Shown piece by piece: positions 8,839 through 15,138 of a stretch of DNA of 64,000 nucleotides. The translations under genes were made by a program, and so were the position numbers. The stretch comes from a virus. The stretch is from positions 1-64,000 of the IMG/VR virus record IMGVR_UViG_3300003690_003472. One strand, 5' to 3'. Within the stretch, counting starts at the first letter, position 1, and every line of letters starts with the position of its first letter. Below the pieces are notes generated by a model. It was not told the DNA's origin, searched no databases, and was given only the letters and a program-made list of their open reading frames with translations.

Positions 8839-9249
8839 GGGGGTGAAACGGCTTCGACGGAATATGGAGAAAATAGCGTGCAAGGTTGTGTGAGTAACAC
8901 AGTAAAACTACTTAAATTTATAAATGCCAACGATAATGTTGAATTTGATTACGCCTTAGCTGCATAATCTGAAGTTACTAACGCTTTATTAAAGAAGTTA
9001 GTTCGGTAGTGCATACGATATCATGTATTAGTTTTTAAGGGTTCAAATAACCTAGTTTGTGTGAAGTTCATGCAGGCGTTTTGATTATATAAGGACTATA
9101 TAACTTTGGTAACCAACGCCTTAAGTTGGTAAATGGATTCCCCGAGTTAATCGGGTGGCTGGCACTTAGGTGGTGATGTGTCTATCCTTGTGAATGACGA
9201 TATTTTCAAAGTTTTTCGGACCCGAGTTCGACTCTCGGCACCTCCACCA
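8839..9249 (+). ncRNA. ssrA: tmRNA (transfer-messenger RNA), one-piece
   Basis: Complete at about 411 nt. The 5' end GGGGGTG pairs with 3' CACCTCC as the acceptor stem, followed by the conserved GGCTTCGACGG segment. The 3' part has a T arm CCGAG-TTCGACT-CTCGG and an encoded CCA at 9247-9249. The tag reading frame is at 8926-8967: GCC AAC GAT AAT ... GCT GCA TAA, giving ANDNVEFDYALAA, whose YALAA end is the usual degradation signal. A one-piece layout argues against the circularly permuted two-piece form of alphaproteobacteria and most cyanobacteria. It could rescue ribosomes on phage or degraded host mRNA and tag products for host proteases. Confidence 0.95.
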
Positions 9250-9273: not shown

Positions 9274-9546
9274 ATGGTAAAAGAGAATAAAGTGTGGAAA
9301 ATTGCGGGCACTTTTAAAACCTATAAAGATGCAGATAACCATAGAAAATCATTAATAATGATGGAAAAACATACCTTAGTTAAGGTCAAACGAGGCGCCA
9401 AAGAATATAGAGTTAAAGTTTGGGATCCACAACCTAAAAAAGAAGATGTAAAAAGCTCTAAATCTAAACTATCTAAAGGTAAAAACAATAAAAGGCTTCG
9501 AAAAAATGAAAACAAGAAGATACGCAATCGACCAAAACAATCATAA
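9274..9546 (+). CDS. Small basic protein, unrecognised
   Basis: 90 aa with a good Shine-Dalgarno (TAGGAG, 9259-9264) ahead of ATG 9274. The first 50 residues look folded (KVWKIAGTFKTYKDADNHRK..., HTLVKVKRGAKEYRVKVW, two beta-rich halves), followed by a Lys/Arg/Asn-rich tail. The beta content and basic charge suggest nucleic-acid binding, but no family is recognised. The next gene starts inside its 3' end. Confidence 0.55.
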   Translation: MVKENKVWKIAGTFKTYKDADNHRKSLIMMEKHTLVKVKRGAKEYRVKVWDPQPKKEDVKSSKSKLSKGKNNKRLRKNENKKIRNRPKQS

Positions 9547-9718
9547 ACTTTTTATTGGAAGCAAAGTAAAATACAAAAAAGATATTTTTCTTATTGAAGA
9601 CATAGATTATTTATCATGGAGCATCAATCAGTATTTAACCTTAGTGTCTCTTAAAAATAAAAATAAAAAATTGGAATTTATTTCCTCCAAAGACGTGAGG
9701 GCTGTCAACATAATATGA
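9506..9718 (+). CDS. Small beta-rich protein, unrecognised
   Basis: 70 aa, overlapping the upstream gene by 41 nt in another frame and the GAPDH-like gene by 4 nt (ATGA). The sequence (HKLFIGSKVKYKKDIFLIEDIDY...YLTLVSLKNKNKKLEFISSKDV) is a pattern of short strands like an SH3/KOW-type barrel. It sits between two convincing genes with coupled starts, which supports expression. Function is unknown. Confidence 0.5.
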   Translation: MKTRRYAIDQNNHKLFIGSKVKYKKDIFLIEDIDYLSWSINQYLTLVSLKNKNKKLEFISSKDVRAVNII

Positions 9719-10779
9719 AAAAAAGTATTTTAATTATAGGTACAGGAACAATCGGAGAACCTTTAATTGGTCTCTTATCCGATTTTAAGGATAAGTTGGA
9801 TATTAATGTATATTTCCACAAACGTACCCCTTTAATTGACGAAGTTGCTAAAGTTAATAGTTTAATTAGTCGCGGTGCAGGTTTGGTTGTTGATCCAGAA
9901 AAGGTTGAAGCTTTCCAAAATCTAGGCCACGAGCCGGTTTTGAATTATGAAGCAGCTTTAAAATTATGTGATGTTGTTATTGATTGTACTCCCGCAGGAA
10001 ACGCAGCAAAAGAAGCACACTATATGCCTATTTTTAAAAAAAATAAGAAAAAGCTTTTTATAGCGCAGGGAAGCGAAAAAGACTTTGGTATGCCATATGC
10101 ACATGGTATCAACGATGATGCACTAATAAAGTCTACACCAAATTTTGTACAAGTTGTTAGTTGCAACACGCACAATATTGCCTCTTTGATAAAAACAATT
10201 TGTCCCACCATAACAGATCTTCATTATGGAGACTTCACATGTATTCGGCGCGCCAATGATATCAGCCAAAATGGAAGCTTCATTGCTTCACCAGAAGTAG
10301 GAATACACAAGAATAGGTCTTTTGGTACTCATCATGCAAAAGATGCATATGATTTATTTGCTACAATGTATCAGCATCCAAATCTTTTTTCTAGTGCACT
10401 TAAAATTAATACTCAATATATGCACACTATTAGGTTTAGTATACATATTAGAAAATATGCAACTGAGGAAGACATCATTAACAAACTTAAAGAAAATAAA
10501 TTTATTGCAATAACACACAAAAATCTTGCAAATAAAGTTTTTTCATTTGGCCGTGACCATGGCTATTATGGTAGAATTTTTAATCACACAGTAGTTTCCT
10601 TGCCAACCCTTCATGTTGGAAGAAACAATGGTAAAACAGTGGTGAGTGGATTTTGTTTTACGCCTCAAGATGGTAATTCTTTATTAAGCAGCGTCGCAGT
10701 TGCTCTTTATGGTATATATGGAAAAGAGTATGCCTCGAAAATAAAAATATTTGATAACTATTTATTTTCAGAGGTATAA
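9715..10779 (+). CDS. Type II (archaeal-type) glyceraldehyde-3-phosphate dehydrogenase homologue
   Basis: 354 aa. The N-terminal Rossmann fold has GTGTIGEPLIGLL (residues about 8-20). VIDCTPAGNAAKE near 89-101 and AQGSEKDFG match the archaeal GAPDH landmarks CTPxG and QGxEK. The catalytic Cys lies in VVSCNTHN near residue 146. The second domain has FTCIRRANDISQNG and FGTHHAKD (the GPDHH-like site) and later MHTIRFSIHI. Type II GAPDHs use NAD(P) and oxidise glyceraldehyde-3-phosphate with phosphate. Homology is clear from order and spacing, but GSEKDFG and GTHH differ from the classical motifs, so the substrate may differ. It overlaps the upstream gene by 4 nt. Confidence 0.75.
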   Translation: MKKSILIIGTGTIGEPLIGLLSDFKDKLDINVYFHKRTPLIDEVAKVNSLISRGAGLVVDPEKVEAFQNLGHEPVLNYEAALKLCDVVIDCTPAGNAAKEAHYMPIFKKNKKKLFIAQGSEKDFGMPYAHGINDDALIKSTPNFVQVVSCNTHNIASLIKTICPTITDLHYGDFTCIRRANDISQNGSFIASPEVGIHKNRSFGTHHAKDAYDLFATMYQHPNLFSSALKINTQYMHTIRFSIHIRKYATEEDIINKLKENKFIAITHKNLANKVFSFGRDHGYYGRIFNHTVVSLPTLHVGRNNGKTVVSGFCFTPQDGNSLLSSVAVALYGIYGKEYASKIKIFDNYLFSEV

Positions 10780-10782
10780 AAC

Positions 10783-11109
10783 ATGAAATACCATCACAGC
10801 TATGTTTGTGATCCAAATAATATAACAATTACAGCCGAAAGTATACCCACCAACAGCAAAGGCATTAAAGTAACATTTCTTTTAAATAATAAGGAAGTAT
10901 TTCATATGTCTCATACTTTAAAAACATATGCACCCATAGATGATGATGTACATGAACATGTAGCTAGATGTTGTAATTTTATAAAAGGAACTTCTGAAGA
11001 TTATATACAAGATAGATTTGATGAAGATGAAATCATGGGTGCTTTAAATATACATAGATTTTTAAAAATAGTACGTACACGTTCTGGAAAAACGGTGTGG
11101 AGAATATAA
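10783..11109 (+). CDS. Unrecognised small protein
   Basis: 108 aa starting 3 nt after the GAPDH-like gene, so co-transcribed. The N-terminal half looks beta-rich (NITITAESIPTNSKGIKVTFLLNNKEVF) and the C-terminal half helical and acidic, ending KIVRTRSGKTVWRI. Cys and His residues are present (YVCDP, HVARCCNF) but make no recognisable metal motif. It ends one base from the convergent minus-strand gene. Confidence 0.5.
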   Translation: MKYHHSYVCDPNNITITAESIPTNSKGIKVTFLLNNKEVFHMSHTLKTYAPIDDDVHEHVARCCNFIKGTSEDYIQDRFDEDEIMGALNIHRFLKIVRTRSGKTVWRI

Positions 11110-12398: not shown

Positions 12399-13736
12399 AT
12401 GGCGAAAAAGACGTATATTCTAGATACCAGTGTTTATTTAACAGATGCCAGCGCGCTGGCATCTTATCAAAATAATGATATTATAATTCCTTTTAAAGTA
12501 TTAGAAGAAGTAGACAACCATAAAAAGCGCCAAGATGGAGTAGGTACAAATGCTAGAAAATTAATTCGCACCTTAGATAATCTTCGCGAAAAAGGCTCTT
12601 TATATAAAGGTGTTAGAATCAGCAAAGGTAAGGGGCTTGTATATGTTAAAACAATTAATTTTGATCCCCTTGATGCATATATACCAAGAGGAACTCTTGA
12701 CGTATCTATAGCTGATAATGAGATAATATTTACCGCACTAGAAGAAAAGAAACTAAATCCTAATAAAAAAGTTATTTTAGTATCGCGCGATATTAATATG
12801 CGTGTAAAATGTGATGCTTTGGGTCTCTTAACTGAAGACTATGTTATCAATCAAGTAATAAAAAATACAGAAAACCTTTATACCGGATTTAAAACACACC
12901 TAGTAGACGATCAAACAATAGATCAATTTTATAGTGGTGAACATATTTTTTTTGATAAAGACGAAATAAAAGTATACCCAAACCATTTTATAATGCTTGT
13001 TTCTAGTGCAAACGATAAAAAGACAGCCCTAGCACGATTCTGCGATTATTCTAAGCCCCTCAGAAGAATTAATGGTGAATATAAAAAAGGCATATGGGGT
13101 GTTAAGCCTCGCAACAAAGAACAGAGTTTTTCATTAGATCTTTTAATAGATCCAGAAATAAAAGTCGTAACGCTAGTTGGCAAAGCAGGAAGTGGCAAAA
13201 CATTATTAGCAATTGCAGCAGGTTTGTCCCAAGTGGTTGAAAGCGACAAGGTAACAAAATATAAAAGATTAATTGTATCACGCCCAATTCAACCACTAGG
13301 AAAGGATATTGGTTATTTACCGGGGACACTGGAAGAAAAAATGACTCCTTGGTTAGCTCCAATTCAAGATAATTTACGTTATTTAATGGGAAACGACAAA
13401 GAAACATTAAGAATGTATACACAACAAGGTACAATAGAAATTGAAGCTTTGACATATATAAGAGGTAGATCAATTGCCAATTCATTTATCATTATTGATG
13501 AGGCACAAAACTTGACAGCACATGAGTTAAAAACAATTATTACAAGAGTTGGAGAAGGCACAAAAGTTATATTAACTGGCGACATTGATCAAATTGATAA
13601 TGCCTATGTTGATGAAACTTCAAATGGCTTAGCATATGCTGTTGAAAAATTTAAAAATTATGATTTGTCCGGACACGTAACATTAATAAAGGGCGAAAGG
13701 TCAAAGGTTGCAACGTTAGCTTCAAAAATTCTTTAA
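12399..13736 (+). CDS. phoH: PhoH-like ATPase with N-terminal PIN domain
   Basis: 445 aa. Residues 1-140 are a PIN nuclease domain: LDTSVYL near 8, EEVDNHKK near 37, and acidic residues in ADNEIIFTALE and VSRDINMR. Residues about 240-445 are the PhoH P-loop ATPase: GKAGSGKT near 261-268 (Walker A), FIIIDEAQN near 363-371 (Walker B) and LTGDIDQID further on. The PIN-PhoH arrangement is known in bacteria (YlaK type) and is frequent in phages. It couples ATP hydrolysis to RNA cleavage or unwinding, although its phage role is unsettled. It is expressed on its own, away from the minus-strand pair. Confidence 0.9.
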   Translation: MAKKTYILDTSVYLTDASALASYQNNDIIIPFKVLEEVDNHKKRQDGVGTNARKLIRTLDNLREKGSLYKGVRISKGKGLVYVKTINFDPLDAYIPRGTLDVSIADNEIIFTALEEKKLNPNKKVILVSRDINMRVKCDALGLLTEDYVINQVIKNTENLYTGFKTHLVDDQTIDQFYSGEHIFFDKDEIKVYPNHFIMLVSSANDKKTALARFCDYSKPLRRINGEYKKGIWGVKPRNKEQSFSLDLLIDPEIKVVTLVGKAGSGKTLLAIAAGLSQVVESDKVTKYKRLIVSRPIQPLGKDIGYLPGTLEEKMTPWLAPIQDNLRYLMGNDKETLRMYTQQGTIEIEALTYIRGRSIANSFIIIDEAQNLTAHELKTIITRVGEGTKVILTGDIDQIDNAYVDETSNGLAYAVEKFKNYDLSGHVTLIKGERSKVATLASKIL

Positions 13737-14185: not shown

Positions 14186-14452
14186 ATGGATAATTCATAC
14201 GAAAACCCAGATTTGCTTAAGCCAGTAGAGAAGTCAAATGAATTAAAAGAATGGCTCGTTGATTATGTGGGCAAAAAAATTAAGCCAGATAACAATGAAG
14301 TTAATGTAGAAATGATTATTAAAATTTTAGCAGAGGAATTTCCAGAATTTCTTTTGGTTGTTGCCGAAGAAAATTTTATTCGTGGATATCAACAGGGCCT
14401 ATCAGATGTTGAAGAAGGTCAGAGGTTAGCAGAGAAAGGACAAACTTTATAA
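14186..14452 (+). CDS. Small acidic helical protein, unrecognised
   Basis: 88 aa, starting one base after the DoxX-like gene. It is mostly helical and acidic (ELKEWLVDYVGKKIKPDNNEVNVEMIIKILAEEFPEFLLVVAEENFIRGYQQGL). No motif is recognised. Its stop shares a base with the next ATG (TAATG), so the metalloprotease is translationally coupled to it. Confidence 0.55.
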   Translation: MDNSYENPDLLKPVEKSNELKEWLVDYVGKKIKPDNNEVNVEMIIKILAEEFPEFLLVVAEENFIRGYQQGLSDVEEGQRLAEKGQTL

Positions 14453-15138
14453 TGATTACGCGTGAAGCTATTTCTGAAAGGGCAAAAGACGCTAAAAAAA
14501 ATGGACGTGAACATTATTTTTATGGAAACAAACTAGTTTATTTGAAAGATCAACTTCCCTTTGAGTTTGATTTAAAATATGTCTTAAATACAATAGAAAC
14601 TTTAATACCAAATAATTTAGTTCAAAATGTCGATGTTGTTTATGTTGGAAAATTTAAAGCATTAGACAACGGAGATACACCATTTAATGCAAAATATAAA
14701 GATGGTGCAATATATGTTACGAATGATCAAGACAGCGAAAACGATATGTTAGATGATGTTATACATGAAATTGCACACGCCGTAGAAGAAAGATACGGCG
14801 ATCAAATATATTCAGATATGGAACTTGAAAATGAATTTAAAGGAAAGCGAACGCGCCTTTATCATATTTTAGAACAAGAGGGTTACGAACCGTCAATAAA
14901 ACATTTAAATGATGTTGAATATGATAAAAATTTTGACTATTACTTATATAATATTATAGGATATCCAATGCTTACTTCTTTAACAAGTGGATTATTTTAT
15001 TCTCCATATGAAATTACGAGTTTGGGTGAATATTTTTCTAATGGATTTGAGAATTATTTTTTAAGAGATCGTGAATATTTAAAAAAAATTAGTCCTATAT
15101 TATATAATAAAATAACTGATATATTGGAAGAACAATAG
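14452..15138 (+). CDS. Lethal-factor-like zinc metallopeptidase
   Basis: 228 aa without a signal peptide. DDVIHEIAHAVEERYG near residue 100 contains the zinc motif HEIAH. Near residue 190, SLGEYFSNGFENYFL supplies the downstream Glu/Tyr typical of anthrax lethal-factor-like (ATLF) gluzincins, where an E(F/Y)FA.xF.xY helix provides the third ligand. It acts in the cytoplasm or virion. Possible roles are head-protein maturation or cleavage of a host factor. Assignment to the zincin fold is firm; the subfamily is tentative. Confidence 0.7.
   Translation: MITREAISERAKDAKKNGREHYFYGNKLVYLKDQLPFEFDLKYVLNTIETLIPNNLVQNVDVVYVGKFKALDNGDTPFNAKYKDGAIYVTNDQDSENDMLDDVIHEIAHAVEERYGDQIYSDMELENEFKGKRTRLYHILEQEGYEPSIKHLNDVEYDKNFDYYLYNIIGYPMLTSLTSGLFYSPYEITSLGEYFSNGFENYFLRDREYLKKISPILYNKITDILEEQ

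Follow-up and report, generated by a model that had tools for sequence, protein, structure and literature searches.

Glyceraldehyde-3-phosphate dehydrogenase (GAPDH) stands at a branch point of central carbon metabolism, and the cyanophage genes for transaldolase, gnd, zwf, and CP12 redirect the triose and pentose phosphate flux of the host around this point. The supply of NADPH is a theme of cyanophage work (PMC5082946). These carbon-metabolism genes are accessory phage genes at the same metabolic node as the gene described here; however, they act around GAPDH, whereas the present gene encodes a homologue of GAPDH itself, in a phage that is not known to infect cyanobacteria. Metabolic genes in phages and type II GAPDHs are both already known kinds. 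Among titles and abstracts of the open literature, no account of a type II GAPDH in a phage was seen, and neither a bacterial subfamily scoring below the curated cut-offs nor a deep clade of phage type II-like GAPDHs was found described.

A type II GAPDH homologue in a phage genome

The window, that is, the whole stretch of 64,000 nucleotides analysed, is part of a 185,564-base IMG/VR virus record that encodes a terminase, a portal, and a contractile-tail sheath, and therefore belongs to a myovirus-type phage. The record also encodes matches to ribonucleotide reductase, dUTPase, IMP dehydrogenase, chaperonin, and the alpha subunit of DNA polymerase III; the IMP dehydrogenase and chaperonin (Cpn60) genes lie outside the window in the same genome (L166:5698-6735 and L166:10997-12568, respectively). 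The structural genes, together with syntenic phage contigs, provide a genuine phage context for an intact ORF of 354 aa at positions 9715-10779 on the (+) strand, in agreement with the coordinates and length given by the sequence-only reading. Its start overlaps the stop of an upstream 70-aa ORF (ATGA), and the next gene begins 3 bases past its stop codon.

The encoded protein was not recognised in a Pfam search, was assigned to no PHROG, and had no good match in BFVD. The best match in NCBIfam was type II GAPDH (E=1.8e-22), and both type II models matched all 32 members scanned, phage and bacterial. The equivalog cut-offs were not reached, with 79.8 bits against a curated cut-off of 185 for NF003251 and 60.3 bits against 232.9 for TIGR01546, and scores so far under these cut-offs count against a phosphorylating GAPDH. 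The type I model TIGR01534 gave a partial match of 22.9 bits, against 367.2 for the cut-off. The PDB search with the single sequence gave E=3.1e-10, while a profile of 32 phage homologues reached E-values from 3.5e-22 (2yyy) to 5e-16 with four archaeal GAPDH structures and only about 1e-3 with type I enzymes. Likewise, the top six PDB matches of the AlphaFold model (pLDDT 89.2, pTM 0.88) were archaeal GAPDHs, with TM scores of 0.72-0.74, compared with about 0.6 for type I enzymes.

The phage protein thus shares with the archaeal type II GAPDHs (structures 1cf2, 2czc, 2yyy, and 1b7g) the fold, the motif order, the positions of the catalytic Cys and His, the RR..D and HH motifs, and the Lys after beta-strand 2, at about 18-21% identity in the structural alignment. 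It differs from them in scoring below the curated cut-offs, in fixed pocket replacements, and in forming a separate clade on a very long branch. With type I GAPDH it has in common the superfamily fold and the Cys nucleophile, at 12-15% identity and with the weak partial HMM match mentioned above. The motifs proposed from the letters (CTPxG, SCNTH with the catalytic Cys, and a His pair) were recovered as CTPAG at residues 91-95, SCNTH at 149-153, and GTHH at 204-207, and their order agrees along the 354 aa in an alignment that is collinear and reaches the C-terminus. Motifs, HMM, PDB profile, and fold matches all agree with the earlier assignment, and the ORF at 9715-10779 encodes a full-length homologue of archaeal (type II) GAPDH, far beyond chance.

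The phage locus and its relatives

The gene lies in a block whose conserved order is tmRNA, two small ORFs, GAPDH, a 108-aa ORF, a trypsin-like protease on the opposite strand, and PhoH. In the window, the tmRNA gene (8839-9249, +; tag ANDNVEFDYALAA) lies upstream, and most of the syntenic contigs that were scanned have a tmRNA with a related tag at the corresponding place. It is followed by a 90-aa ORF (9274-9546, +), a conserved upstream neighbour in 20 contigs, and by the 70-aa ORF (9506-9718, +), whose homologues in 18 contigs mostly lie directly before GAPDH. Downstream are the 108-aa protein (10783-11109, +; homologues in 33 contigs), the trypsin-like protease (PF13365; 11111-11848, -; homologues in 37 of 43 loci), and the PIN-PhoH protein (12399-13736, +). 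A further conserved block protein at 14452-15138, with homologues in 27 contigs, weakly resembles a metalloprotease-type domain in Pfam, below the threshold. Farther on, a glycan cassette at 16236-38367 encodes several glycosyltransferases, two NeuB-type synthases, a CMP-sugar cytidylyltransferase-like protein, two DegT aminotransferases, and GDP-mannose dehydratase-like, UDP-glucose dehydrogenase-like, and GT29 sialyltransferase-like proteins.

Comparison of the tmRNA with the cellular genomes tried gave no close match that could indicate the host; similarity of the GAPDH-like genes makes Marinimicrobia plausible. A marine origin of the phages is suggested by the IMG/VR sample numbers and by the many cellular relatives that come from the sea.

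Presence of the gene was counted in the 38 contigs with the closest homologues of PhoH and at least 3.2 kb upstream of it, a few of which are near-duplicate records. GAPDH was present in 18 and absent from 20, so it is an accessory gene and not a core gene of this phage lineage. Operons of GAPDH and an A-domain encapsulin are described in archaea (PMC8346489), and this resemblance made the 108-aa protein, with its tight spacing and wide occurrence, attractive as a GAPDH partner. However, a sensitive profile search found the 108-aa ORF in 17 of the 18 contigs with GAPDH and also in 11 of the 20 without it, which rules out this partnership and indicates that GAPDH is an accessory gene placed before the ORF rather than half of an operon pair. 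The Thermococcales operon carries a downstream HK97 A-domain protein (DUF1884) of about 100 aa, of which the phage protein shows no sign: it had no Pfam DUF1884 match, and 2PK8 was absent from the top 50 fold matches listed. Its model is confident (pLDDT 93) but matches no known fold significantly, and nothing convincing came from searches by structure or profile.

Protein and degenerate-motif searches of IMG/VR found the GAPDH-like gene in 42 contigs besides the window, and all 25 stretches matched by the motif GTNWSNTGYAAYACNCAYAAYATHGC carry it. The 32 distinct full-length phage proteins obtained are 50-80% identical to that of the window. By the Nei-Gojobori method, informative phage pairs gave dN of 0.05-0.16 against dS of about 0.9-2.3, with dN/dS of about 0.06-0.09. 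The gene is therefore real, as both the number of full-length sequences and the low dN relative to dS show, and it is under strong purifying selection. Among INPHARED phages, no GAPDH relative was found at E<=1e-5, the best weak match (E=5e-3) being to an unannotated faecal phage record.

In a quick-search tree, in which many deep branches are poorly settled, 31 of the 32 phage proteins group together (SH-aLRT 99) within the bacterial sequences, on a stem of 0.39 changes per column. The remaining one (contig L033) lies apart from this main phage clade and branches with bacterial members, apparently through a second acquisition. Two contigs (L001 and L004) carry copies that are 76-80% identical, in a different gene order but adjoining the same protease family, which suggests exchange between phage lineages. 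One of them also encodes a large protein (L001:2521-4803) in which repeated DNDCDGxID-type cysteine motifs were seen by eye, reminiscent of Myxococcota surface proteins and possibly a hint of the host.

Bacterial relatives and the active site

In a profile scan of cellular genomes, with each species represented by a single genome, at least 537 stretches proved to encode relatives. The best 80 of these are nearly all from bacterial genomes, at 48-54% identity, and include Marinimicrobia, Acidobacteriota, Myxococcota, Acidimicrobiia, Krumholzibacteriota, Nitrospinota, Entotheonella, and others, as well as one MAG labelled Bathyarchaeota. In the tree, a very long branch that is probably saturated sets the canonical archaeal type II enzymes apart. 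The description of the phage protein as archaeal-type thus holds as a distant family resemblance but not as an archaeal link, since the close relatives among the matches listed are bacterial. The phylogeny with type II GAPDHs that had been proposed as a check places the phage proteins with the bacterial members, far from the archaeal enzymes. These bacterial proteins constitute a type II-like subfamily that has been little described; it resembles the phage proteins over the full length and has the same pocket residues, and among its members the phage clade is set apart by its own stem and its viral context.

No neighbour of the bacterial genes was conserved across phyla, and no conserved glycolytic operon was found, in the 57 of 80 loci with gene calls; the lack of such an operon also counts against a phosphorylating GAPDH. 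The adjacent genes in Marinimicrobia resemble tilS, hpt, and ftsH, as judged by reading the sequences. One homologue from this phylum (G036:C14:143960-145015) has three in-frame TGA codons and may be a pseudogene or a case of TGA recoding.

The contrast drawn in the sequence-only reading, that bacterial hosts normally use type I GAPDH, was misplaced, as many bacteria carry the subfamily, usually together with type I but in some cases lacking it. Of 61 Marinimicrobia sampled, the subfamily was found in 36 and type I in 57; 32 of the 36 carriers also have type I, the four genomes without type I (all about 1 Mb) all have the subfamily, and no genome lacks both. In the Entotheonella phylum, all three carriers have no type I, whereas both non-carriers have it. 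Nine carriers without type I were tested for phosphoglycerate kinase, and each of them has it. One of the nine (G007) possesses a type II GAPDH of the canonical kind as well; in the other eight, the subfamily is the sole GAPDH candidate found by searching for type I and canonical type II, in a sample of possibly incomplete drafts, some picked for lacking type I, in which related genomes are not independent. Since these eight have phosphoglycerate kinase and no other GAPDH was found in them, the bacterial subfamily is probably a working phosphorylating GAPDH. The enzymes GAPN and GAPOR are non-phosphorylating and would not yield the substrate of phosphoglycerate kinase.

Phage and bacterial members were aligned with 13 archaeal enzymes to compare their residues. 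The Rossmann motif GTGTIG occupies residues 9-14 of the phage protein and is followed by an invariant K36 after beta-strand 2, where there is no acidic residue, which makes it a candidate site for the 2'-phosphate. Next come CTPAG, QGSE (118-121), SCNTH with the putative nucleophile Cys150, RR..D (178/179/182), GTHH with the His pair at 206/207, and QYMH with the catalytic-His candidate H237, as well as R280 and Q318. Both C150 and H237 are invariant and align with the invariant archaeal Cys (SCNT) and His (MH). Residues kept relative to the 13 archaeal enzymes are GxGTIG, K36, D90, P93, G95, Q118, G119, E121, S149-T152, R178, R179, D182, H206, H207, D210, M236, H237, R280, and Q318; the roles of nucleophile, base, and phosphate sites are predicted by alignment with archaeal and type I enzymes. 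The predicted nucleotide-binding, catalytic, and Arg/His residues are therefore retained, so that the loss of nucleotide- or phosphate-binding residues that would have refuted the earlier assignment was not found, although the model is weak in two active-site loops (182-186 and 279-285) that hold the conserved D182 and R280, so the fine geometry of the pocket is not to be read from it.

The surroundings of the active site do not match the archaeal type II identity, with several positions or pairs replaced in phage and bacterial members. These are, from archaeal to phage and bacterial, T to H153, G to S120, PS to G204-T205, P to N232, T to Q234, VH to T316-P317, and E to D319. As judged from the alignment, the unusual pocket residues are a property of the whole bacterial subfamily and not phage changes. 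They are therefore uninformative on a phage-specific substrate, and the suggestion that substitutions around QGSEKDFG and GTHH hint at an altered substrate in the phage does not stand.

GAPDH-fold proteins often moonlight, and the patchy distribution among phage relatives could fit a GAPDH that has lost catalysis and serves the phage in a moonlighting or structural capacity. Such a protein is very improbable here, as the putative chemical residues are invariant across the 32 phage proteins and a dN/dS below 0.1 is unexpected for a dead enzyme.

Predicted role during infection

The reading preferred here, with a probability of roughly 0.6, is that the gene encodes an active phosphorylating GAPDH of the bacterial type II-like subfamily that supplements the host during infection. 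Cys150 would attack glyceraldehyde 3-phosphate, and hydride would be transferred to NAD(P), with H237, the equivalent of the archaeal catalytic His, acting as base and the Arg178/Arg179/His206/His207 cluster holding the phosphates; phosphate would then release 1,3-bisphosphoglycerate. In infected cells, the phage enzyme would add to host GAPDH, and triose-phosphate flux, ATP, and NAD(P)H would be directed to nucleotide synthesis. The nucleotide-metabolism genes of the phage genome make supplementing host triose-phosphate oxidation and the supply of NAD(P)H and ATP the simplest role. As an accessory metabolic gene, it may have entered the marine phage pool long ago and been gained and lost at a fixed site.

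A Lys after beta-strand 2 without an acidic residue resembles NADP-using archaeal enzymes, and the alignment of K36, which replaces the acidic residue, together with archaeal structures suggests that the cofactor is probably NADP(H). Within the preferred reading, the enzyme could thus be a gluconeogenic or NADPH-specific isoenzyme, working in the reductive direction or making NADPH rather than serving glycolysis, of which GapB of B. subtilis is a known example. The coexistence of type I GAPDH in most carriers is in line with this, but carriers in which no other GAPDH was found would need both directions and cofactor preference cannot be fixed from sequence, which makes this specialisation somewhat less likely than not.

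The consistent pocket differences from archaeal GAPDH, which extend across the subfamily, also allow a related phosphorylated aldehyde as the substrate. A dehydrogenase of the same fold would then act on another phosphorylated aldehyde or acyl phosphate, such as erythrose 4-phosphate, to provide a cofactor or a sugar precursor. One or more type I GAPDHs coexist in most carriers, a few members have weak secondary matches to erythrose-4-phosphate and aspartate-semialdehyde dehydrogenases, and the window holds the large glycan cassette. However, the secondary matches are many orders of magnitude weaker than those to type II GAPDH, the carriers without type I keep phosphoglycerate kinase and hence need a source of 1,3-bisphosphoglycerate, and the gene lies outside the glycan cassette and occurs in phage contigs with other gene orders, all of which make a different substrate unlikely.

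As regards the family as a whole, it is a tentative proposal, at somewhat under even odds, that the subfamily is a distinct and unrecognised class of bacterial phosphorylating GAPDH, apart from type I and archaeal type II. It would be the sole GAPDH of some lineages (Entotheonella with its relatives, and Marinimicrobia with small genomes), and marine phages would have captured it, perhaps on two occasions, for host takeover. Where genomes seem glycolysis-incomplete, the GAPDH that is missing may be a member of this widespread subfamily, which falls under the family-model cut-offs. If phages keep a GAPDH throughout a deep viral clade, marine phages would be able to intervene directly at the triose-phosphate step of largely uncultured hosts.
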